A DNA stretch of 45,476 bases from Bacteroidota bacterium (lineage in GTDB: Bacteria > Bacteroidota > Ignavibacteria > UBA10030 > UBA8401): the NCBI GenBank assembly GCA_030679145.1, contig JAUXTU010000101.1:1-45476 (forward strand), given 5' to 3'. Position 1 is the stretch's first letter, and every line of letters begins with the position of its first letter. The notes under the pieces were generated by a model. It was not told the DNA's origin, did no database searches, and saw only the letters and a program-made list of their open reading frames with translations. The position numbers and the translations under genes are program-made. Shown here in pieces: positions 8,658 through 23,066 of this stretch.

Positions 8658-8771
8658 ACGGTAAATGTAAGAAATTATTAGGCAATATGATTCACAATCT
8701 TTGGGATGAGGAAATTTTTTCGTAGTTTGATACTGCAAACTCACTCATTGATGAATAATCTTAATAGTAAA

Positions 8772-9302
8772 ATGAAGAAAACCCTCACTGCAAAACTGAA
8801 AAAAATCAAACTCCTTGCAACCGATGTTGACGGTGTCCTTACTGATGCCGGTGCATATTATTCAGAAGATGGTATCGAACTAAAAAAATTCAATATTCGC
8901 GACGGAATGGGAATAGTGCTTCTTCGCAAAGCAGGGTACAAGATCGCATTCGTTACAACTGAGAATACAAAGATCGTCGAAAAACGTGCCGAACGCTTAC
9001 AGGTGGATGACCTTATACAGGGAAGTTACAACAAAATGGAAGCTTTGGAAAAACTTCTTCAAAAATATTCTTTGAAATGGGAAGAGATCGCATTCATCGG
9101 CGATGACATCAACGATATTCCCGTTTTGAAAAAAGTCGGCTTCTCAGCCGCTCCTGCAAATGCAACCGCAATCAATAAAAAAATTGCTGACTTCGTTACA
9201 AAATCGGATGGCGGGCATGGAGCGGTTCGTGAAGTATGCGATCTGTTGCTGGATCTGAAATGGAAAGGCGAATCAATCACGGATTTATGGCTGAAGAAAT
9301 AA
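8772..9302 (+). CDS. kdsC: 3-deoxy-D-manno-octulosonate 8-phosphate phosphatase (KdsC-type HAD)
   Basis: This 176-residue HAD phosphatase is of the compact, capless C0 type. Visible motifs are ATDVDGVLTDAGAYY (motif I with the nucleophile Asp), FVTTEN (motif II), a Lys in the middle region (motif III) and GDDINDIPVLKKVG (motif IV). The family's APANA and GGHGAVREVCDLLL tail is also present. KdsC removes phosphate from Kdo-8-P to make Kdo for the LPS inner core, acting in the cytoplasm as a tetramer. I prefer the start at 8772 (MKKTL) because it gives the usual KdsC length, but ATG 8751 is in frame and neither start has a strong ribosome site. No kdsA or kdsB is nearby, so a related nonulosonate phosphatase cannot be excluded. 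Confidence 0.82.
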   Translation: MKKTLTAKLKKIKLLATDVDGVLTDAGAYYSEDGIELKKFNIRDGMGIVLLRKAGYKIAFVTTENTKIVEKRAERLQVDDLIQGSYNKMEALEKLLQKYSLKWEEIAFIGDDINDIPVLKKVGFSAAPANATAINKKIADFVTKSDGGHGAVREVCDLLLDLKWKGESITDLWLKK

Positions 9303-10710: not shown

Positions 10711-11793
10711 TTAAAACTTGTTCATCACCTCAATCACCCGCCGCACATCATTTTCAGAATGACAATACGAGATCGGCAGACTTAATGTTGTCGCATGAAT
10801 TTCTTCTGAGATGGGATACTGCTGTTTCATCAACACTCCCGCCATCGCTTTTTGCTTATGCGGTGGAACCGGATAATGCACTTCCGTTTTTATCTCATTC
10901 TTCAACAGATACTCTTTCAACTCATCGCGTTTTCGATGTCGGACATTATAGATATGAAAAACATCAACATAATCACTATCGGCGACCGGTTTGATAAAAT
11001 CGCTCTTTAATCCGGCATGATACAACTGAGCAAGTTTCTGTTTATGCTGTGTGATCTCATGCAGATGTTTCAATTTCACTGATAAGAATCCTGCCTGTAA
11101 TTCATCAAGCCGTGAATTGTACCCGACAACTTCGTTATAATATTTTTTCTCTGAGCCATAATTTCGCAGCATTCGAATCTTGTTTGCAAATGATTCATCA
11201 TCAGTCGTTACTGCTCCGCCGTCACCAAGACATCCTAAATTCTTTGTTGGATAGAAACTGAATGCACCGTATCCGAATGTTCCGGTCAACTTCCCTTTAT
11301 GTTTCGCGCCGTGAGATTGGGCACAATCTTCGATCAATGAAAGATTTTGTTTTTGTGCGATTGCAAAAATAGTATCCATCTCGCATGATTTTCCGTAAAG
11401 ATGAACTACCATGATTGCGCAAGTTTTTGGAGTAATTGCCTCTTCAATTTTTCTTGGATCAATATTGTATGTACGAATATCAGGTTCAACAAGAACCGGT
11501 ATGAGATCACATTGAAGTATGGAAAGTATCGTTGCAATGTACGTATTCGAAGGGACGATGACTTCGCTTCCTTTTTCAAGATTCAATGCGCGCAGACAAA
11601 GAATGAGTGCATCCAATCCATTTGCAACACCAATGCAATATTTACTCGCATTGAATGCTGCAAATTCTTGTTCGAAATTCTTCACGGCATTTCCAAGAAT
11701 GAACCAGCCGCTATTCAATAGGACATTGAACGACTTTCGATATTCATCAAAGAATGATTCGTTGGCTTTTCGTAGATTTTCGTAATCAATCAT
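10711..11793 (-). CDS. fdtB: DegT/DnrJ/EryC1/StrS sugar aminotransferase (FdtB/QdtB-like)
   Basis: This 360-residue PLP-dependent enzyme has the whole family pattern: [14 protein letters not shown], the [10 protein letters not shown] motif, and Lys184 in [16 protein letters not shown] as the PLP Schiff-base lysine. The C-terminal substrate-recognition region contains YPVPPHKQ. Its start overlaps the stop of the upstream ketoisomerase gene in an ATGA, so the two are translationally coupled. FdtA plus FdtB converts dTDP-4-keto-6-deoxyglucose to a 3-amino-3,6-dideoxyhexose (Fuc3N or Qui3N). The pairing is the main basis for the name; sequence alone does not tell Fuc3N from Qui3N. No FdtC/QdtC acetyltransferase or RmlB is in the window. 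Confidence 0.85.
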
Positions 11794-12155
11794 GGATATT
11801 GCTCAAAGATATAATCTTTTGGATCGAACAATTCTGACGCAAATACGAGAAAGACAGCGTCAGGTGTGAAGTGATGCATTGTATGCCAATCGCGCGGTTC
11901 AAGAATCAAACATTTGTTCGGATGGTCAAGGACAAAATCTTGTTTCGTTGTTCCATCGTTATTTGAAACAATACAACTTCCGTGTACACAAATGCACGCT
12001 TGATATGTCGTATGATGCCTATGCCCACCCCGCACAGAATCATCCACCCCATAGATATAAAATGTTCTCTTTACTTCGAACGGAATCTCTTTTTCAATGA
12101 CCGTAAGATTCCCTCGTTTATCGGAATGTGTTTTCAAATGAATGATATACGCCAT
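11790..12155 (-). CDS. fdtA: dTDP-4-keto-6-deoxyglucose 3,4-ketoisomerase (FdtA/QdtA family cupin)
   Basis: This 121-residue protein is a single cupin domain of the WxcM/FdtA type. Residues 43-48 read GGHRHH, matching the catalytic RGxHxH motif of FdtA, and [10 protein letters not shown] near residue 12 is typical of the family. [13 protein letters not shown] forms the second cupin strand pair. It would isomerise the 4-keto sugar to the 3-keto form for the coupled aminotransferase. It lies 12 bases after the upstream glycosyltransferase gene in the same minus-strand operon. No clear ribosome site is visible. Whether the product has the gluco or galacto configuration cannot be read from the sequence. 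Confidence 0.85.
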
Positions 12156-12167
12156 AATTCGAGATGG

Positions 12168-13151
12168 TCAATGAAGAAATTTTTTCAATGGATAGATATG
12201 ATAGATGTTAAAAATTTTTCGATAGATAAATAATATCAACGATTTAATTGAATATTCATATTTTCCTGTTCCGTGAGGATCGAACGATGGATCAATCGAT
12301 GATATTTCGTTCTTTACTTTCTGCAATTCAATCAAATATGGAACATAGAGCAATCGTAATACATCATCGGATAATAATCTCCTTCCGAGTTCAATTCGGT
12401 CTTGATCAAGAAAACGAAGGTAATGAAAATGATAGAAGATCACCGGAAATTCTTTTCCGTTTATTTTTTCTTTCCCGAATAATTTACCATTTTTTTCAAA
12501 GACATCATACTGCTGAACGTTCCATGCAGCCATCCCGCCACCAAGATGCTGCAATTCGTGTACTCCGTTGAACCGTGTTGTCCAATCATCAAGATATTTT
12601 TGATCACCAAATTTACCATCTTCAAATTGTGCATAACACCATTCAATACAGCGCTCACGCCACCATCGAAGCACCGTTAAACCGCGTTCATCATTCTTAA
12701 ACGAAACAAATTGCACGCAATATTTACCGCTCAGTGCTTCTTTGTTATAGCGTGGAGAATACCGATGTTCTGTGATCATTACAGAATTGTTTGCCTTTTC
12801 ATCAAACAACGCTTTAGGCGACTCAAAGAACATCATATCCGCATCAAGATATGTGCACATATCAACACTGTATTTTTCCAGCACATATAAGATGGTTGAT
12901 GATGTTGATGTCCAGCAATATTCTGCACGGGATCGTGTCGGTTTTATCTGAAGCAGTTCTGCATCTTCAAATTCTTTCAAGGAAATTATCGTCGCGTTTT
13001 GAAGGTTGAGTTTCTGCAACACCGATAACGAACGATCGTCGAATGCAAAAATATACAGATGAAAATCACTGCAGACTCGTTCGAGTGAGCGGTACAGCGT
13101 TAATCCGCGGGACGAATAATTCGAATCGAATAACGTGCAGAAGTTATACAT
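12168..13151 (-). CDS. Putative GT-A glycosyltransferase
   Basis: This 327-residue protein starts with a nucleotide-sugar-transferase-like fold (FCTLFDSNYSSRGLTLYRSL). A DxD-type metal motif, TYLDADMMFFE, has its acidic residues at 103-105. This arrangement resembles GT8-like and related GT-A enzymes. The later GGGMAAWN and YHFHYLRF segments look like acceptor-site loops. The C-terminus is basic and aromatic (IYRKIFNIYHIYPLKKFL), which suggests membrane association. The start overlaps the upstream methyltransferase stop by 8 bases. It is a likely surface-glycan glycosyltransferase with unknown donor and acceptor. Confidence 0.75.
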   Translation of the reverse strand: MYNFCTLFDSNYSSRGLTLYRSLERVCSDFHLYIFAFDDRSLSVLQKLNLQNATIISLKEFEDAELLQIKPTRSRAEYCWTSTSSTILYVLEKYSVDMCTYLDADMMFFESPKALFDEKANNSVMITEHRYSPRYNKEALSGKYCVQFVSFKNDERGLTVLRWWRERCIEWCYAQFEDGKFGDQKYLDDWTTRFNGVHELQHLGGGMAAWNVQQYDVFEKNGKLFGKEKINGKEFPVIFYHFHYLRFLDQDRIELGRRLLSDDVLRLLYVPYLIELQKVKNEISSIDPSFDPHGTGKYEYSIKSLILFIYRKIFNIYHIYPLKKFLH

Positions 13152-16521: not shown

Positions 16522-17046
16522 ATGCAAAAACCTCAAGTATTTGTTCTCGATGTCGATGGAGTCTTGACGACGGGTCAATTCTTCTATACTGCTAAAGGCA
16601 AAGCGATGAAAGTCTTTGGTGCGGATGACAACGATGGTTTGTCATTATTGAAACAGTATATGTCAATACATTTTGTTACGGGAGATAAAAAAGGTTTCCC
16701 TATTTCGAAAAAACGAATTGTCGATGATATGAAATTTCCGTTGGATATCGTAAGCACGATCCGACGTGCTGAATGGCTCTCCGAAAAATATGACCTTCAA
16801 AATGTCATCTATATGGGTGATGGTATTTTTGATCATTATGTCATGAAAAAAGTTGGTTACAGCATTGCACCTGCAAATGCCGATGAGTCAGCAAAAAAAC
16901 ACGCGAATTATGTTACTGCACGTTCCGGCGGAGAAAGAGCAGTTGCAGAGGCATGTCTTCACATTTTGGAAAAATTCTTTATTCCTTATAATCCCGATCA
17001 ACTTCCAGAAGGGCAACATAAATTATCCGGTGAATGGGCTGTATGA
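16522..17046 (+). CDS. KdsC-like HAD phosphatase (second copy in window)
   Basis: This 174-residue HAD protein has VLDVDGVLTTGQFFYT (motif I), HFVTGDKKGFPISKKRI (motif II region) and YMGDGIFDHYVMKKVG (motif IV), then SIAPANADESAKKHANYVT and a GGERAVAEAC tail. It is clearly a paralogue of the KdsC family but diverged from the copy at 8772. Its stop overlaps the start of the next gene, a GatZ/KbaZ-like aldolase, in an ATGA. This coupling suggests it removes phosphate from the aldolase product rather than from Kdo-8-P. That substrate assignment is inference. Confidence 0.85.
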   Translation: MQKPQVFVLDVDGVLTTGQFFYTAKGKAMKVFGADDNDGLSLLKQYMSIHFVTGDKKGFPISKKRIVDDMKFPLDIVSTIRRAEWLSEKYDLQNVIYMGDGIFDHYVMKKVGYSIAPANADESAKKHANYVTARSGGERAVAEACLHILEKFFIPYNPDQLPEGQHKLSGEWAV

Positions 17047-18209
17047 TACAACAACGATTTGAACAATTAGTTAAAAATAAAAAATGCACTCTCTTGGGCG
17101 TAGGACCAATGAGCAAGAACTGTGTTGATGTGGTCATTGAGTTGGCAAACGAACACAATGCACCACTGATGCTGATAGCAAGCCGTCGTCAGATCGATTC
17201 CGAGGAATTTGGCGGCGGATATGTAAATAATTGGACAACAAAAGAGTTTGCAAAATATATCAACGATAACGACAAACGTGGAAAAGTGATCTTGGCGCGT
17301 GACCATGGCGGACCATGGCAAAATGAATTGGAGAAAAAACAGAATTTCGGTTTACGTCAGGCAATGGAATCAGCAAAAAAATCGTATAAAAGCGATCTCG
17401 ATTCCGGTTTTGATATATTGCATATCGATCCAAGTGTCGATCCATATGCAACGCCAAATGTGTCGGAAGTATTGGATCGTATTTATGAGCTGTATGATTA
17501 TTGCTGGTCGTACGCAAAACAAATTGGCAGAGATATTCAATTTGAAATAGGTACCGAAGAACAAAGCGGCAGTACGAATACTTCGGAAGAACTTGAGTAT
17601 ACGCTCAATGAAGTTATCAAATTTTGTGAAAAACGAAATTTTCCTAAGCCAATGTTTGTCGTCGTCCAGACAGGCACCAGAGTGATGGAAATGAAAAATG
17701 TCGGATCGTTCGATTCACCAATTCGTGTTGTTGGAGAATTAGCGGCAGAAGTTCAAGTGCCAATGATGATCGATATTTGTCATCGATATGGTATAATGAT
17801 GAAAGAACACAATACCGATTATCTTTCGAGCGATGCTTTGAAGTGGCATCCGCGGCTGGGTATTCATGCGGCAAATGTTGCACCCGAATTTGGTGTAGCA
17901 GAAACCTGTGGTATTTTAGAGATGATTGAATTAACAAAGCAAAATAACCTGCTCGAACAATTCAGCACGTTGGTTCTTGAATCAGATAAGTGGAAAAAAT
18001 GGATGCTCCCGAATACAAAAGCTAATGAATTAGACCGGGTTAAGATTGCAGGCCATTATGTTTTTGCAACTCCTCAGTTTGTTGAAATTAAAAGGCAATT
18101 AGAAGATAAACTGCAGCCAAAAGGAATCATTCTAGATAATATTCTTAAACAAAAAATACGCGAATCAATTCTTCGCTATATGTCAAACTTTCGCTTAACA
18201 AAATTGTAA
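17043..18209 (+). CDS. GatZ/KbaZ-like class II aldolase family protein
   Basis: This 388-residue TIM-barrel protein resembles the non-catalytic subunit of D-tagatose-1,6-bisphosphate aldolase (GatZ/KbaZ). Matching elements are NEHNAPLMLIASRRQID, GGGYV, ILARDHGGPW (compare GGDHLGP in KbaZ), a GFDILHIDPS strand, FEIGTEEQSGS, FVVVQTGT and EHNTDYLS. The start at 17043 makes an ATGA overlap with the HAD gene; an ATG at 17034 is also in frame. No GatY/KbaY partner is present. It may therefore act as a stand-alone aldolase or lyase on a sugar phosphate, with the Asp-His pair of RDHGG as candidate catalytic or metal residues. The substrate is unknown. Confidence 0.82.
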   Translation: MIQQRFEQLVKNKKCTLLGVGPMSKNCVDVVIELANEHNAPLMLIASRRQIDSEEFGGGYVNNWTTKEFAKYINDNDKRGKVILARDHGGPWQNELEKKQNFGLRQAMESAKKSYKSDLDSGFDILHIDPSVDPYATPNVSEVLDRIYELYDYCWSYAKQIGRDIQFEIGTEEQSGSTNTSEELEYTLNEVIKFCEKRNFPKPMFVVVQTGTRVMEMKNVGSFDSPIRVVGELAAEVQVPMMIDICHRYGIMMKEHNTDYLSSDALKWHPRLGIHAANVAPEFGVAETCGILEMIELTKQNNLLEQFSTLVLESDKWKKWMLPNTKANELDRVKIAGHYVFATPQFVEIKRQLEDKLQPKGIILDNILKQKIRESILRYMSNFRLTKL

Positions 18210-18211
18210 CC

Positions 18212-19024
18212 ATGAGAAATGCAACTATTATCTTAAATCGCAACCTCCCGGACGTGACTGATCGGCTGGTAAAACAGCTAAGCCAAGACAATACTCAAGT
18301 CTTTGTAGTAGAAGCAGGATCAGACGAAAATAAATTATCATCGTTTTGTACCTGGCATGCAAACTGGCCCGAAGCGATGAATGACGGCTTACGTGCAGCT
18401 CGCGGCTTCAACTATGGTTTATTCAAATTATATGAAGAAAAAAGATTTGACGAATTTGATGCTTTTTTTCTGGTTACCAATGACACTGAATTTGCAATTC
18501 CTGATCCGGTAACAAAACTCAGCGATGTATTAACAAACCATCCCAAAGTTGGGATTTTATCTCCATGTTCTGAACGATGGGGAGAGAAACTGCTTCTTCA
18601 ACAGGAGAAGACACGATATTTTTGGTACATTCATAATACAGCATTGCTCATTCGCCGGGAACTTATCCAAAGTATTATGCCAAAGAATGAACTATCCTAT
18701 ATGAATTTTCTCTTTGACGGGACAAATTTCCGCGGGTACGGTTTGGAGAGCGAATTGATTGCAAAAGCTTATGCAAATGACTGGGCTTCTGCGATTACTA
18801 CAGAAGTTTGGGCAGAAGAAAATGAAAAATGGCTTCTGACAAAGTCTGACCTGATTAAAACTGAATCATTTGAGAACAATCTCAATCTCTATATAAAAGA
18901 AGGACTCGATTGGATGCAGTCAAAGTTCGGATTCAGCAGCCGATGGCATATGCAAATGTATACAAAATTTTGGTACGATCAATTCTTTAATTTCCACCCT
19001 GAGTTTTTGAAATATAAAATTTAG
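18212..19024 (+). CDS. Putative GT2-like glycosyltransferase
   Basis: This 270-residue protein starts 2 bases after the aldolase-like gene. The N-terminus (ATIILNRNLPDVTDRLVKQL) and the FFLVTNDTEF motif near residue 90 match GT-A enzymes; the acidic residues in NDTEF stand where DxD normally lies. HNTALLIRRELIQ and NFRGYGLESELIAKAY are typical of rhamnosyl- or GT2-type enzymes. The C-terminus is aromatic. It probably transfers the sugar made by the surrounding cassette, but no direct evidence identifies donor or acceptor. Confidence 0.78.
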   Translation: MRNATIILNRNLPDVTDRLVKQLSQDNTQVFVVEAGSDENKLSSFCTWHANWPEAMNDGLRAARGFNYGLFKLYEEKRFDEFDAFFLVTNDTEFAIPDPVTKLSDVLTNHPKVGILSPCSERWGEKLLLQQEKTRYFWYIHNTALLIRRELIQSIMPKNELSYMNFLFDGTNFRGYGLESELIAKAYANDWASAITTEVWAEENEKWLLTKSDLIKTESFENNLNLYIKEGLDWMQSKFGFSSRWHMQMYTKFWYDQFFNFHPEFLKYKI

Positions 19025-19133
19025 GAAAACTGATGATAGCAATGAAGATTTGTCTAAACGAGAATAAAAGTCCTGTAAACTCACCGTTACATCATCGCAA
19101 TTTTTATAAACCTTTCGGGGAGTTGTCTTGCTC

Positions 19134-19982
19134 ATGAATTCCACTCCCTCAGCTCGAATCAGCAAAATTTACCTTATTTCAAGGCTGTTTCAGAGTCTCA
19201 AAACTGCATTAGTAAACCCAAAAAAAATTGTACGGATCCTAAAAAAACAACGCGATAATTTTTATGAATCCAGGCTTAATTCACAATGGAGTAAACAAGA
19301 TTATATTTTAAAAGAAATTGACCATTGCGACAAAGCCTTTTACGAAACAAACAAAACTGTGCCAGAAATTGAACATCAAGTAGGTCGATATTTGAATATG
19401 AAAACTATCTGCAGTCAAATAATTGCTGAAGGACTTGACGGTGATATTGTGGAATTTGGTACGTGGCAGGGATTAGGGTTGATTCTATTCAGTCGTTGCT
19501 TTTCGAATGACAATACAAATAGAAAATTTATCGGAATAGATTCTTTTGAAGGTCTCCCTGAATCATCAACAATCTGGATCAAAGGATCGTTTGACAATAC
19601 TTCGGTAGAGTTAACAAAAAAGAACATTCAGTCAAAGTTTTTCCAAAATCAATCTTTTTCCGTTGAACTGATAAAGGGATGGTTTAGTGATCCATCGGTA
19701 AAAGAAAAATTATCCTCTCTTTCCAAAGAAATTGCATTGGTGCACTTTGATGCTGATTTAGGTAGTTCTACAACGCAAGCTCTTTCGTTAATCGAACCGT
19801 ATTTGATCAACAGAACAAAACCTATCTATTTTCTATTTGACGATTGGGGTTGTCATCCGGATGAAGTTCCGGAAGCCTTTTTATCTTGGCTCTCAACTGC
19901 AGGCACAACATTTAAATTACAAGCACACAAACTTTCTTCAACTCGTTTCACGAGATATTATAAAATAACCTTCAATAATTAG
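19134..19982 (+). CDS. TylF/MycF-type macrocin O-methyltransferase-like protein
   Basis: This is a 282-residue methyltransferase. GDIVEFGTWQGLGLILFSRCF, FIGIDSFEGLPE, LVHFDADLGSSTTQALSLI and YFLFDDWG match the TylF family, which O-methylates sugar hydroxyls with a metal-bound catechol-like geometry (Asp residues in HFDAD and DDWG). GGGGAG at about 19117-19122 could serve ATG 19134 or an in-frame TTG at 19128; the TTG has the better spacing. It lies within the plus-strand operon, 8 bases before the cupin gene. It likely methylates a sugar of the glycan. Confidence 0.85.
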   Translation: MNSTPSARISKIYLISRLFQSLKTALVNPKKIVRILKKQRDNFYESRLNSQWSKQDYILKEIDHCDKAFYETNKTVPEIEHQVGRYLNMKTICSQIIAEGLDGDIVEFGTWQGLGLILFSRCFSNDNTNRKFIGIDSFEGLPESSTIWIKGSFDNTSVELTKKNIQSKFFQNQSFSVELIKGWFSDPSVKEKLSSLSKEIALVHFDADLGSSTTQALSLIEPYLINRTKPIYFLFDDWGCHPDEVPEAFLSWLSTAGTTFKLQAHKLSSTRFTRYYKITFNN

Positions 19983-19990
19983 AGATCGCT

Positions 19991-20338
19991 ATGCAAATCA
20001 TTGAAAAACCCTGGGGTAAAGAAGAAGTAATAGAAATTAATGATAAATACATGGTGAAAAAACTGACTATGTGGAAGGACCATCGTTGTAGTATACAGTA
20101 CCATAACCTAAAACGTGAAACAATTTATGTCCTAAGTGGTCAGCTTCGAATTTATTATGGGCCAACAAAAGAAAAACTTGATTCGCGCATTTTCTATCCC
20201 GGCGAAAGTATCACTCTTATTCCCGGAGTTGTACACCGAATGGAAGGTGTTGAAGACAGCGTCTATCTTGAATCAAGCACTCCTGAAATGGAAGATGTTG
20301 TTCGTTTAGTGGATGACTATAATAGAAAAACCACATGA
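19991..20338 (+). CDS. Cupin of the type II phosphomannose isomerase-like group
   Basis: This 115-residue single cupin starts with EKPWGKEEVIEIN, as in the isomerase domain of type II mannose-6-phosphate isomerases (KPWGxxE). SIQYHNLKRETIYVLSGQL supplies the two His and the Glu metal ligands, and LIPGVVHRME supplies the third His. It could isomerise a sugar phosphate, or only bind one. Its stop overlaps the start of the nucleotidyltransferase-kinase gene in ATGA, so it probably acts on the same substrate. This is a small stand-alone version; the family often carries this domain fused to a GDP-mannose pyrophosphorylase. Confidence 0.82.
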   Translation: MQIIEKPWGKEEVIEINDKYMVKKLTMWKDHRCSIQYHNLKRETIYVLSGQLRIYYGPTKEKLDSRIFYPGESITLIPGVVHRMEGVEDSVYLESSTPEMEDVVRLVDDYNRKTT

Positions 20339-21915
20339 GCTATCGTGTACTTATCCCTACCGCTGGAACAGGTTCACGGCTTGAAGGTTTAACAAAATAT
20401 GTGAACAAATCCCTTGTCGGAATTGCAAATCGACCGACAATATCACATATCATCGAACAATTTCCGCCAGACGTAGAATTTGTTATCGCTCTTGGTCATA
20501 AAGGTCATCTTGTTAAAGAGTTTTTACAGTTGGCATATCCGCATCGTCTGTTTTATTTTTCCGAGGTTGACCCATTTGAAGGTCCCGGTTCCGGACTTGG
20601 GTTGAGTATACTCTCCTGTAAAAAATATTTACAACAGCCATTTGTATTCACCTCTTGCGACACACTGGTACGTGAACCAATACCATCTTTGCAAACTAAT
20701 TGGATGGGATATGCGGAGTCAGTTGAAATTGGACAATACCGCACAATAGAAATTCATTCTGGCATAGTGAAATCCGTCAATGAAAAAGGGATTGGAAAAG
20801 GAAATTCGGATAAACCATATATTGGGTTGGCGGGAATCAAAGATTACGAATTATTTTGGGATGCAATGGAAGAAGGCGGTGAGGAATCAATTGCTATGGG
20901 TGAAGCATATGGAATGAATCAACTTTTAAGCGCTGGTATTCAAGCAAAACGGTTTACATGGTTCGACACCGGAAACATACAATCTCTGGAAATGACAAGA
21001 AACGCATATCGACAAGAGCATGAACCTAATATCTTAGAAAAAGCTGATGAGGCAATTTGGTTTGTCGATGATCAAGTAATCAAATTCTCAAACAATACAA
21101 AATTTATTTCCAACCGTGTTGAACGTGCTGCGGCAATCAAAGAATTTATCCCTAATGTTACCGATGCAACAGAACATATGTATAAATATGTAAAAGCAAG
21201 CGGTGATGTCCTCTCCAATTGTATTACAATTCCGTTATTTGAAAAATTCCTGTACCATTCATTGTCGTTCTGGAAACTAGAAAAATTAGACAACGTTAAA
21301 ACATCAAAATTCCGGAATTCTTGTATGCGGTTTTACAAGGATAAATCCTTTGAGCGAGTTGATTTATTCTATAAAAATTTTGGAAAGAACGATGGAAAAG
21401 AAACAATCAATGGTTTTAATGTTCCAACTTTACAGGAATTATTGGATACCATTGACTGGAACTGGCTTGCCGACGGCTTACCAGGGCGATTCCACGGCGA
21501 TTTCCATTTTGAAAATATCCTCTACTCAGATTCAACTCAACAATTCACCTTCTTAGATTGGCGGCAGGAGTTTGACGGTTCTCTCACAACCGGAGACATT
21601 TATTACGACCTTGCAAAACTGCTTCACGGATTAATTATCTCTCACAAATTAATTGTACAAGACCATTATTGGATTGATTGGCAAAATGATGCAATCCGTT
21701 ACGATTTTCATCGAAAGCAGATTCTTGTTGAATGTGAACGGTACTTTTACGAATGGCTGAAAAAAAATAATTTTGATGTTGTCAAGGTCAAGACTCTAAC
21801 TGCACTAGTATATTTGAACATCGCTGCACTGCATCATGATCCATATTGCAAACTGCTGTTTGCATTAGGCAAAACAATTTTACACGATACATTAACTCAA
21901 TCAAAAACATTATGA
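20335..21915 (+). CDS. Nucleotidyltransferase fused to an APH/choline-kinase-like kinase
   Basis: This 526-residue protein has two enzymes in one chain. Residues 1-240 are a sugar-phosphate nucleotidyltransferase: PTAGTGSRLEGLTKYVNKSL is the NTP-binding loop, and SCDTLV near residue 107 gives the metal Asp. Residues 260-520 resemble aminoglycoside or choline/ethanolamine kinases: HGDFHFENIL near 386 is the Brenner catalytic loop (HxDxxxxN), and FLDWRQEF near 405 replaces DFG. A kinase followed by NTP activation in one protein, as in bifunctional fucokinase/GDP-fucose pyrophosphorylase, would convert a free sugar or alcohol to an NDP derivative. ATGA overlaps couple it to the cupin and the next methyltransferase. 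The substrate is unknown. Confidence 0.85.
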   Translation: MSYRVLIPTAGTGSRLEGLTKYVNKSLVGIANRPTISHIIEQFPPDVEFVIALGHKGHLVKEFLQLAYPHRLFYFSEVDPFEGPGSGLGLSILSCKKYLQQPFVFTSCDTLVREPIPSLQTNWMGYAESVEIGQYRTIEIHSGIVKSVNEKGIGKGNSDKPYIGLAGIKDYELFWDAMEEGGEESIAMGEAYGMNQLLSAGIQAKRFTWFDTGNIQSLEMTRNAYRQEHEPNILEKADEAIWFVDDQVIKFSNNTKFISNRVERAAAIKEFIPNVTDATEHMYKYVKASGDVLSNCITIPLFEKFLYHSLSFWKLEKLDNVKTSKFRNSCMRFYKDKSFERVDLFYKNFGKNDGKETINGFNVPTLQELLDTIDWNWLADGLPGRFHGDFHFENILYSDSTQQFTFLDWRQEFDGSLTTGDIYYDLAKLLHGLIISHKLIVQDHYWIDWQNDAIRYDFHRKQILVECERYFYEWLKKNNFDVVKVKTLTALVYLNIAALHHDPYCKLLFALGKTILHDTLTQSKTL

Positions 21916-23066
21916 AACAAATAACCGGACTTGTCGATCGAAGTTATGGAGTAATAACCAAAGAACGTAATCTTGAATTGCTTCACATATTCAAGAACTT
22001 TCCTGTATTCTTTGGCTGTACAAATCAACCCGCTGAACATGATTATGCAACCGATATGATCTGGGAAATTGAAACTGCTACCGGACTTATACAGCTTTCG
22101 AAGCTAGTACCGTTGGAAATCCTCTATATGGAACAACACGTTGATGCTGTTGGAAAAACGTGGAATGAATATTACGAAGCCTTTACTGATTTTATTGTGA
22201 AGAACAAAAAGGGATCTATCCTGGAGATCGGCGGTGGAAGCGGAAAATTAGCAAAGAATGTTTTAGCGAAGGATATTTCTTTAGAATATACAATGATGGA
22301 ACCGAATCCTACGTTTGAGGAAACTGAACGACTGAAAGTAATCCGCGAATTTTTCACAAAAGATACCGTTGTCGAAACAAAAGGGATTCAAACCGTTGTT
22401 TTCTCTCAGGTGCTAGAACATGCATATGACCCGGATGCCTTTTTAGACAATATCTACGGCTTTTTACCGGTCGACGGAAGACTTGTGTTTGCATATCCTA
22501 ATCTGGAAAATTGGTTTGCTAATAAATATACGAATGCAATTAATTTTGAACATACATTTTTATTGACGGACTATTTTGTAGATTTTTTGTTGAAGAAAAT
22601 CGGTTTTGTAATTACTGAAAAGACTGCATATAAAAACCACAGTCATTTTTACGTGGCAGTAAAAATTGACTCTAAGAACGATAATGCTGCCATTGAACTG
22701 CCAAACAGATACGTGCACTATAAAAATATGTTCGGGGAATTCATTCAATATCATACGACCCTTGTCGCAGAATTAAACCAAAGAATTAATGAAACGGATT
22801 CCAATATTTATCTTTTCGGTGCACATATTTTTTCGCAATTTCTTTTTGCATTTGGTCTAAATGATAAAAAAATACGATATATTTTGGATAATAGTCCTTT
22901 GAAACAAGAAAAACGATTATATGGTTCTTCGTTGATGGTGAAAGCCCCTTCATTCTTATCTACCGATCCAAATCCAAAAGTGATATTAAAGGCTGGGATT
23001 TATAATGAAGAAATTAAGAAAGATATACTCCAGAATATCAATCCAAGTACAGAGTTTTGGGAATAG
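21912..23066 (+). CDS. Class I SAM methyltransferase with C-methyltransferase-like tail
   Basis: This is a 384-residue protein. The start at 21912 overlaps the upstream stop in ATGA; the frame is open further upstream but inside the kinase gene. A short N-terminal region (FPVFFGCTNQP, LVPLEILYMEQHVDAVGKTW) precedes ILEIGGGSGKLAKNVL (SAM motif I) and VVFSQVLEHAYDPDAFLDNI. The C-terminal part has IYLFGAHIFSQFLFAFGL and YILDNSPLKQEKRLYGSSL, matching the Rossmann-like tail of NovU/TylC3-type sugar C-methyltransferases (Methyltransf_14). The Cys-rich zinc site of that family is not obvious, so the reaction may differ. It probably acts on the sugar or the nucleotide-activated intermediate. Confidence 0.83.
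   Translation: MKQITGLVDRSYGVITKERNLELLHIFKNFPVFFGCTNQPAEHDYATDMIWEIETATGLIQLSKLVPLEILYMEQHVDAVGKTWNEYYEAFTDFIVKNKKGSILEIGGGSGKLAKNVLAKDISLEYTMMEPNPTFEETERLKVIREFFTKDTVVETKGIQTVVFSQVLEHAYDPDAFLDNIYGFLPVDGRLVFAYPNLENWFANKYTNAINFEHTFLLTDYFVDFLLKKIGFVITEKTAYKNHSHFYVAVKIDSKNDNAAIELPNRYVHYKNMFGEFIQYHTTLVAELNQRINETDSNIYLFGAHIFSQFLFAFGLNDKKIRYILDNSPLKQEKRLYGSSLMVKAPSFLSTDPNPKVILKAGIYNEEIKKDILQNINPSTEFWE

Follow-up and report, generated by a model that had tools for sequence, protein, structure and literature searches.

A GatZ-family gene lies in a four-gene run

The window analyzed here, a 45,476-nucleotide (nt) contig of a Bacteroidota bacterium, carries open reading frames (ORFs) for a HAD phosphatase, a GatZ-family protein, a cupin, and a nucleotidyltransferase-kinase (here NTK) in one run, all on the plus strand and open at the coordinates given in Table 1. 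A check of the sequence placed ATGA junctions at 17043, 20335, and 21912, confirming the overlaps that an earlier note on this DNA had reported for the HAD-GatZ, cupin-NTK, and NTK-methyltransferase pairs; the first of these requires that GatZ start at 17043 rather than at the longest-ORF start, 17034. The same note's four-gene set in a single plus-strand run agrees with the ORFs, Pfam matches, and coordinates. Two genes that it omitted, a conserved ORF and a TylF-like methyltransferase gene, lie between GatZ and the cupin. Overall, the neighboring genes in the window look like a surface-glycan cluster rather than a DNA modification locus.

Table 1. Genes of the run and adjoining ORFs in the window
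Feature	Position	Strand	Matches and remarks
KdsC-like HAD phosphatase, 174 aa	16522..17046	+	PF08282 32.7 bits (cut-off 20.9)
GatZ-family protein	17043..18209 (ATGA start; longest ORF from 17034)	+	PF08013 29.1 bits (cut-off 26.7)
Conserved ORF, 270 aa	18212..19024	+	no Pfam or NCBIfam match
TylF-like methyltransferase	19128..19982	+	PF05711 57.9 bits
Cupin, 115 aa	19991..20338	+	PF01050 36.0 bits (cut-off 23.6)
NTK (nucleotidyltransferase-kinase)	20335..21915	+	APH kinase PF01636 33.1 (cut-off 23.2); PF00483 21.4 (cut-off 21.2)
Methyltransferase with PF08484 C-terminal domain	21912..23066	+	PF13489 48.0 (cut-off 27); accessory
ORF, 273 aa	23198..24019	+	no Pfam match; adjoins module in Chlorobium too

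The GatZ-family protein resembles epimerases

By sequence, the GatZ match is weak: a six-frame search of the source genome scored 24.1 bits, under the PF08013 cut-off of 26.7, and the window protein scored 21.4 bits against the NCBIfam agaZ_gatZ equivalog (cut-off 568.8). The solved folds nearest to its AlphaFold model (pLDDT 88.1) were 2fiq (Z 36.8, rmsd 2.9, 362 aligned) and 3txv (Z 32.8, rmsd 3.0, 339 aligned), followed by tagatose 4-epimerase and UxaE (Z about 27) and the tagatose-bisphosphate aldolase 1gvf (Z 24.5), the aldolases' lower Z being due in part to shorter chains. Residues D90, H91, E171, and H259 (numbered from 17034) are kept in all 111 unique viral and all 9 reference module sequences, and D90, H91, and H259 match, in the zinc site predicted for E. 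coli GatZ, Asp87/His88 and His257, assuming that 2fiq numbering follows the E. coli protein. In one alignment, E. coli Glu44 and Lys279 are replaced by Ile48 and Asn281, so the substrate may differ. Glu175, aligned with E. coli Glu171, is present in 106 of the 111 viral sequences and absent in locus L069.

E. coli GatZ and KbaZ are C4-epimerases of fructose-6-phosphate and tagatose-6-phosphate, and earlier work recounted in the same source found no aldolase activity for them (PMC11907403). The GatZ/KbaZ-like assignment made in the earlier note holds on PF08013 and fold, whereas its aldol step conflicts with these characterized relatives; the "aldolase" label is probably wrong, and we prefer to read the protein as a ketose-phosphate epimerase. 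A working aldolase, joining DHAP or dihydroxyacetone to an aldehyde to give an extended or branched sugar, would agree with the shared fold of class II aldolase relatives such as 1gvf and with one viral GatZ that also matches F_bP_aldolase (PF01116, 32.1 bits, cut-off 25.5). We consider it very improbable, given the activities above and best fold matches that belong to the epimerase family. It would also lack its usual GatY/KbaY partner, as previously claimed: the 19 window proteins scanned include no GatY/KbaY-like aldolase Pfam match.

As a marker of kinship GatZ was rejected, being found only in the source genome among 100 relatives and in 0 of 7 same-genus genomes. Across 395 genomes of the phylum, 21 matched, but only four besides the source at 49 to 61% identity, three of them in catabolic surroundings. 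Same-subfamily GatZ genes without NTK also lie in catabolic surroundings (L025 to L027), and the GatZ hits in plasmids and sequenced phages were for the most part catabolic relatives linked to a PTS. One sequenced virus, AG-345-E15, has GatZ, cupin, HAD, and NTK together. The three viral GatZ proteins tried against PHROG had no match.

NTK, cupin, and HAD

NTK joins a nucleotidyltransferase domain (about residues 1 to 235) to an APH-type kinase domain (about 236 to 526), in line with the fusion proposed earlier and its PF00483 and PF01636 matches; a PF12804 match to the NTP-transferase half (22.6 bits) lies below the cut-off of 27. The model has a pLDDT of 92.4, and G11, G13, D109, D211, K250, H387, D389, N394, and D408 are invariant across 15 sequences. 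The fold search covered the nucleotidyltransferase half, and the kinase half is therefore assigned by Pfam and residues. For the former, the best solved profile match was LicC (1jyk, E 3.9e-8), and structural neighbors include MurU (4y7v, Z 21.9). NTK is also a remote homologue, over both domains, of ORF53_52c of phage RB69, a suspected DNA-arabinosylation enzyme (hhalign 97.8%, E 1.3e-12, residues 4 to 433). Some match to NTK occurred in 265 of the 395 phylum genomes; among the matches listed, only the source genome, G314, and G012 had full-length ones, the others being generic half matches. Against PHROG, NTK matched only families of unknown function.

The cupin resembles the C-terminal domain of phosphomannose isomerase/GMP (ManC; C-terminal part of TIGR01479, E 2.7e-7) and scores below the full bifunctional ManC profile (29.8 bits, cut-off 372.95); its best solved profile matches were generic cupins (oxalate decarboxylase). 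Residues H38, E43, H82, D102, and R105 are invariant in all 11 aligned cupins, which keep the metal-ligand pattern (H38, E43, and H82) and the ED/DD..R motif. Cupins of the phosphomannose isomerase (PMI) type act on hexose phosphates.

The HAD is 51 to 76% identical to those of other module loci. It falls below the cut-offs of both TIGR01670 (KdsC; 82.9 bits against 106.95) and KDN-9-phosphatase (67 bits against 180), and a Pfam scan of 19 window proteins gave no nonulosonate synthase or GmhA-type match. On these results the gene set matches none of the known routes to nonulosonates or heptoses, in line with the earlier note, to which no described pathway with these genes was known.

The module recurs with two interchangeable supply sets

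HAD, GatZ, cupin, and NTK form a real module that recurs beyond chance. By profile count, the four genes occur together in 6 of 11 NTK-bearing genome loci (L063, L064, L068, L069, L071, and L072). Four other loci, including three from rabbit-gut MAGs, combine HAD and NTK with Rpe and SIS proteins, and the remaining one is cut. Chlorobium ferrooxidans carries the GatZ-type set, and an Ignavibacteriae locus has the Rpe+SIS type. The viral counts fall short of a census: each of the two scans searched with two short peptide patterns and retained the best 80 relatives (of 278 in one, of 199 in the other), and some contigs occur in both. GatZ is present in 65 of the best 80 viral loci bearing NTK, and in 60 of these a cupin lies no more than 1.5 kb from NTK (62 under looser limits on distance and score). 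Rpe and SIS occur in 10 of the 80, never with a cupin (0/10), and GatZ and Rpe+SIS never occur together (0/80). The five GatZ loci outside the 60 comprise L159 (cupin 1.65 kb off), L232 and L171 (contig edge), and L170 and L181, where no cupin was seen. Neither supply set was present in L165, L166, L219, and L173, each with NTK near a contig end, nor within 6 kb downstream in L183, which has HAD and NTK and is a real or apparent exception. The HAD match was strong in 43, weak in 15, and unseen in 7 of the 65 GatZ loci. NTK was absent from 13 of the best 80 GatZ-seeded viral loci, all of which start at a contig end near GatZ.

GatZ and NTK share a strand in all 131 viral loci having both (two overlapping locus sets pooled), and 11 cupin-NTK and 6 HAD-cupin fusion ORFs were found, some of them near-copies. 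Across 85 pairs, the distances of GatZ and those of NTK are correlated (r 0.82, shuffled maximum 0.13), which shows co-inheritance, not function. In the NTK tree, Rpe-type NTKs occupy three places. They formed one clade in 0% of 200 bootstrap trees, and a single origin was rejected (AU test, P = 0.00011, on 37 rows picked after viewing a 92-row tree, with type labels taken from gene content). This indicates that two supply sets swap beneath a constant HAD and NTK.

The module moves as a set between bacteria of distant lineages and many environmental phages, and its four genes together probably ready a rare sugar for attachment. The conserved, pathway-like module of the earlier note is borne out by the neighborhood search, in which GatZ and the fusion co-occur elsewhere in both genome and viral loci. 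Their frequency in viral contigs, the Rpe+SIS alternative, and the homology of NTK to the RB69 protein had not been foreseen.

The conserved ORF between GatZ and the cupin occurs in 5 of the 11 NTK-bearing genome loci (L063, L064, L065, L068, and L071), always between these two genes or cut there; it has no match among viral ORFs and no solved relative. Its place and the look of its sequence make it a candidate cognate glycosyltransferase. The TylF-like methyltransferase, which in the window stands between this ORF and the cupin, is not at that place in L063, L064, L068, and L071. The accessory methyltransferase downstream of NTK has relatives of 39.8 to 42.2% identity in L063, L064, L065, and L071 and one of 27% in L072. 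The methylation step proposed earlier therefore keeps its gene, but only as a side feature near the module in some loci. The 273-aa ORF is 43.5% identical over 248 residues to an ORF at 12722 to 14200 of L064.

In the Rpe+SIS loci, 6-phospho-3-hexuloisomerase was the best NCBIfam match of all six SIS proteins tested, two above the RuMP_HxlB cut-off of 160 (184.0 and 173.9) and four below (158.1, 156.9, 116.7, and 109.5), and the fit was far better than to KpsF/GutQ. The rpe score exceeded the allulose-6-phosphate epimerase score in all six Rpe proteins and passed the rpe cut-off in one. Reactions of the SIS and Rpe families lead from fructose-6-phosphate to 3-hexulose-6-phosphate, through epimerization beside the carbonyl, and back; by these reactions the pair, in place of GatZ and cupin, could also yield tagatose-6-phosphate.

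A putative route from ketose phosphate to NDP-sugar

Taking gene content, linkage, the swap, active-site residues, and folds as the observations, we infer the reaction steps, their order, the sugar, and the nucleotide. On balance, we favor reading positions 16522 to 21915 as a nucleotide-sugar supply module that leads from a ketose phosphate to an NDP-sugar. GatZ would epimerize a ketose phosphate, most likely fructose-6-phosphate, by retro-aldol/aldol chemistry at its zinc site (at C4 in the characterized relatives), and the PMI-type cupin would turn the product into an aldose phosphate. The HAD would strip the phosphate either before or after the APH-type kinase half of NTK phosphorylates the anomeric carbon. 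Neighboring glycosyltransferases would then receive the NDP-sugar made by the nucleotidyltransferase half. If GatZ uses fructose-6-phosphate like its relatives and PMI stereochemistry holds for the cupin, NDP-D-talose could result, a doubtful assignment at this point.

The broader proposal, tentative as well, is an undescribed route, in bacteria and environmental phages, to an NDP-activated C4-epimerized hexose (D-talose or D-tagatose) on which unrelated enzyme pairs converge. A catabolic epimerase family would have been recruited in one set, while 6-phospho-3-hexuloisomerase and Rpe would walk the carbonyl to C3 and back in the other, and the sugar might decorate surface glycans in some bacterial hosts and phage DNA or virions elsewhere. 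If the supply-module reading is right, both sets should give the same or closely similar NDP-sugars. Several points count against that reading: the replaced Glu44 and Lys279, the incompletely kept Glu175, the four SIS scores below cut-off, the weak or unseen HAD in part of the viral GatZ loci, the GatZ genes that stand without NTK in catabolic surroundings, and, if Rpe and SIS make tagatose-6-phosphate, the unexplained absence of a cupin beside them.

That absence of a cupin (0/10 viral and 0/4 genome loci) would be accounted for if tagatose-6-phosphate or an epimer were dephosphorylated and activated as an NDP-ketose, with the cupin serving for binding or regulation. Open-chain fructose activated with CDP is known, as CDP-6-D-fructose (PMC10918830), and LicC, the best solved profile match of the nucleotidyltransferase half, is a cytidylyltransferase whose substrate is an open-chain alcohol phosphate. 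We nevertheless find a ketose product unlikely, given the cupin's invariant metal-ligand pattern and motif and its ties to GatZ and fusions to NTK or HAD.

Rpe, by name a pentulose-phosphate enzyme, and the RB69 arabinose-5-phosphate isomerase point to a pentose rather than a hexose, in which case GatZ and cupin would act on pentulose phosphates and NDP-arabinose or another NDP-pentose would arise from ribulose- or xylulose-5-phosphate. We hold this route possible, at low confidence: the module SIS proteins favor 6-phospho-3-hexuloisomerase over KpsF/GutQ, and PMI-type cupins, as noted, use hexose phosphates. The characterized GatZ relatives, too, use hexose phosphates (PMC11907403). RB69 has arabinosylated DNA (PMC6024577; PMC13390438), along with a SIS protein annotated as arabinose-5-phosphate isomerase and an adjoining small HAD, and NTK is homologous to its ORF53_52c over both domains; that link is remote, however, and the RB69 pathway to activated arabinose is itself described as uncharacterized (PMC13390438).

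Relation to known systems

If the preferred reading, a supply module from ketose phosphate to NDP-sugar, is true, the GatZ family has an anabolic role, and a widespread unnamed phage gene set becomes readable. The origin of RB69-type activated arabinose would become a testable family question, with two interchangeable sets feeding one kinase-nucleotidyltransferase. A fixed-word search of the open-access PubMed Central subset, which is weak evidence, found no description of GatZ, cupin, and NTK as a set. A review of jumbo phages mentions clusters of phage sugar genes that encode cupins, HADs, PfkB kinases, and HIGH-superfamily nucleotidyltransferases, and the words GatZ and aldolase are absent from its available text. 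One survey of ocean-virus genes, as far as its available text goes, excluded contigs with LPS-type genes (nucleotidyl transferases and carbohydrate kinases), which may explain why such sets go missed.

The CDP-6-D-fructose/CDP-glucitol route of Campylobacter and pneumococcus also converts a ketose phosphate into an activated capsule sugar, but it is described as a single cytidylyltransferase acting directly on fructose-6-phosphate, followed by a reductase, with no epimerase, HAD, cupin, or kinase (PMC10918830). The window GatZ shares with E. coli GatZ/KbaZ the fold and, at the predicted zinc site, the Asp-His pair and the second His; it differs in structural sequence identity (15 to 19%), in the replacement of Glu44 and Lys279, and in having an anabolic neighborhood of HAD, cupin, and NTK rather than one of galactitol or aminosugar catabolism. 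The GDP-heptose route (GmhA-HddA-GmhB-HddC) isomerizes, phosphorylates the anomeric carbon, dephosphorylates, and activates, and AmgK-MurU salvage pairs an APH-type sugar kinase with a comparable nucleotidyltransferase. The module would share this logic, yet its isomerase and epimerase differ, its kinase and nucleotidyltransferase are fused, and it has no GHMP kinase.

Closest in architecture is the arabinosylation set of RB69 and Mosigvirus (ORF051c HAD, ORF53_52c, and ORF055c SIS), which shares the nucleotidyltransferase-kinase fusion in identical domain order, a small HAD (sHAD profile E 5e-9; EcbF-BcbF 49.5 bits, below cut-off), a sugar-phosphate isomerase, and a suspected route to an activated rare sugar. 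In the 8-kb RB69 stretch examined, matches to GatZ, cupin, and Rpe do not rise above noise. The RB69 isomerase is KpsF/GutQ-like, whereas the 19 window proteins scanned include no SIS match; in the window the HAD belongs to the larger, KdsC-like type, and the neighboring genes resemble a surface-glycan cluster rather than a DNA modification locus.

Gene run in the window

ORFs, profiles and the junctions themselves agree with the earlier note, in which one plus-strand run has genes for a HAD phosphatase and a GatZ-like protein, then for a cupin, for a fusion of nucleotidyltransferase and kinase (NTK) and for methyltransferases; inspection of the sequence finds ATGA at three of its junctions. 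A profile scan of the window proteins identified glycosyltransferase, methyltransferase, aminotransferase and flippase genes around the module (HAD, GatZ, cupin and NTK), surroundings that appear to resemble a surface-glycan cluster. The window also holds another HAD of similar type, and an aminotransferase-isomerase pair that suggests an amino-deoxysugar. PHROG 7851, which matches the cupin, is named cysteine dioxygenase, a name that is probably misleading here.

Features of the window and of related loci
Feature	Position	Strand	Basis or context
HAD phosphatase	run begins 16522	+	ORF and profile calls
GatZ-family protein	second in run from 16522	+	ORF and profile calls
Conserved ORF without family	third in run, after GatZ	+	ORF and profile calls
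TylF-like methyltransferase	fourth in run, before cupin	+	ORF and profile calls
Small cupin	window 19991-20338	+	ORF and profile calls; PHROG 7851
NTK	after cupin	+	ORF and profile calls
Second methyltransferase	last of run, after NTK	+	ORF and profile calls
Another HAD	window 8706-9302		PF08282, 54.6 bits
DegT-type aminotransferase, FdtA-type isomerase	window 10711-12155	-	adjoining
Second cupin-NTK pair	L071 11626-16418		then GmhA-like SIS protein, split transketolase
PTS, transketolase, transaldolase, GatZ relative	L029 1010-11289		Klebsiella plasmid; mercury operon adjoins
Viral cupin	L210 5658-6011		PHROG 7851
Unknown protein, C5-cytosine-methylase-like gene	L178 8840-10090; L204 8789-10018; plus preceding 401-413 aa genes		near UvsX, DnaB or DNA polymerase genes
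RB69 p051	L235 1709-2095		recorded as phosphoheptose isomerase

Distribution in bacteria and viruses

Scanning genome contigs with an NTK profile and then typing gene content by profile yielded 11 loci, two of which (L064 and L070) lie on the contigs of earlier matches (G314 and G012). The gene-neighbourhood check proposed in the earlier note finds the four genes together elsewhere, in 6 of the 11: Riflebacteria (L063), Chlorobium (L064), Dadabacteria (L068), Omnitrophota (L069) and Alphaproteobacteria (L071, L072). In four others (L066, L067, L070, L073) the partners of HAD and NTK are an epimerase like Rpe and an isomerase of the SIS type, and the contig start truncates the last, L065. GatZ is absent from all seven genomes of the window's own genus, which suggests that the gene set moved by transfer. 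The second cupin-NTK pair of L071 reads as if it were a heptose version of the module. The GatZ relative on the Klebsiella plasmid shares the RDHGGPWQ/KEHN motifs.

The module is common in viruses. Viral scans identified 278 GatZ and 199 NTK relatives, and the best 80 of each were fetched. Among these 80 NTK loci, 65 carry GatZ, 10 carry Rpe and SIS, none both and 5 neither (60, 9 and 5 of the 74 distinct NTK sequences). A cupin lies within 1.5 kb of NTK in 60/65 GatZ loci versus 0/10 Rpe and SIS loci. Of the 65, 43 have a strong HAD match, 15 have a weak one and in 7 no HAD is seen. Fusions join cupin to NTK in 11 ORFs and HAD to cupin in 6, near-copies included. Four loci inspected for context hold DnaB and primase (L074), DnaB and UvsX (L178), DNA polymerase and UvsX (L204), and PhoH (L210). 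AG-345-E15, a deposited sequence, is a marine virus.

Two interchangeable supply sets

The two supply sets swap while HAD and NTK remain constant. Rpe-type rows require three changes on the 92-row NTK tree, forced by its starred branches; on a careful 37-row tree, whose rows were picked after the larger one, constraining them to a single clade is worse by 87 log units (p-AU 0.00011). Since the supply changes while HAD and NTK stay, the most economical interpretation is that the sugar supplied would be identical or similar in the two cases.

The GatZ model (pLDDT 88.1) is nearest to 2fiq (Z 36.8) and 3txv (Z 32.8), followed by tagatose 4-epimerase and UxaE (Z about 27); class II aldolases rank after these epimerases, at Z 24.5 and lower but on shorter chains. 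E. coli GatZ and KbaZ are described as converting F6P to tagatose-6-P, with two His and one Glu predicted to bind zinc and with Asp as the predicted base (PMC11907403). In our alignment D90, H91, E171 and H259 are present in all 111 viral and 9 reference sequences, and Glu175, aligned to E. coli GatZ Glu171, in 106 of the 111 viral ones, while E. coli Glu44 and Lys279 are replaced in the window by Ile48 and Asn281. Given this pattern of kept and replaced active-site residues, the chemistry is probably retained and the substrate may differ from that of the E. coli relatives.

For the alternative set, 6-phospho-3-hexuloisomerase was the best match of all six SIS proteins tested (over the cut-off in two), and rpe outscored allulose-6-P epimerase in all six Rpe proteins tested (over the cut-off in one; L178 is a near tie). 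6-Phospho-3-hexuloisomerase converts F6P to 3-hexulose-6-P, whose carbonyl-to-phosphate spacing is that of ribulose-5-P. By this chemistry the SIS isomerase would make 3-hexulose-6-P, Rpe could invert C4, and the isomerase back-reaction could give tagatose-6-P, so that overall the pair would do what GatZ does. A simpler reading, no less compatible with the data, would be one-to-one replacement, of GatZ by Rpe and of the cupin by SIS. In two viral Rpe loci (L178, L204) the genes after the module encode an unknown protein and one resembling C5-cytosine methylases (PF00145), a hint that phage DNA may be a target of a new kind of sugar modification.

Cupin, NTK and comparison with RB69

Cupin residues H38, E43, H82, D102 and R105 are present in 11/11 aligned sequences, and the nucleotidyltransferase and kinase residues of NTK in 15/15, R15 and K25 nearly so. 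Read by eye, the fused NTK of L072 has lost R15 and K25 and an adjoining separate nucleotidyltransferase has both, which would fit a need for the two activities. The nucleotidyltransferase half, which the fold placement covers, resembles LicC, RmlA and GalU in profile and fold searches.

Taken together, this is a genuine gene set that is both mobile and widespread, and it is predicted to work like a known kind of activated-sugar supply module with an undescribed front end. Arabinose is reported on RB69 DNA, with an ORF53_52c-type gene set proposed to make the donor (PMC6024577); the pathway is termed uncharacterised in PMC13390438, and an RB69-like protein is cited in phage Thanatos (PMC12838424). 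For RB69 p051, profiles indicate a small HAD and EcbF-BcbF (below its cut-off). Profile-profile alignment matches the RB69-type ORF53_52c profile to NTK with 97.8% probability over residues 4-433. The kinase-nucleotidyltransferase logic is common to both sets, whereas RB69 has a GutQ-like isomerase where the window has GatZ and a cupin.
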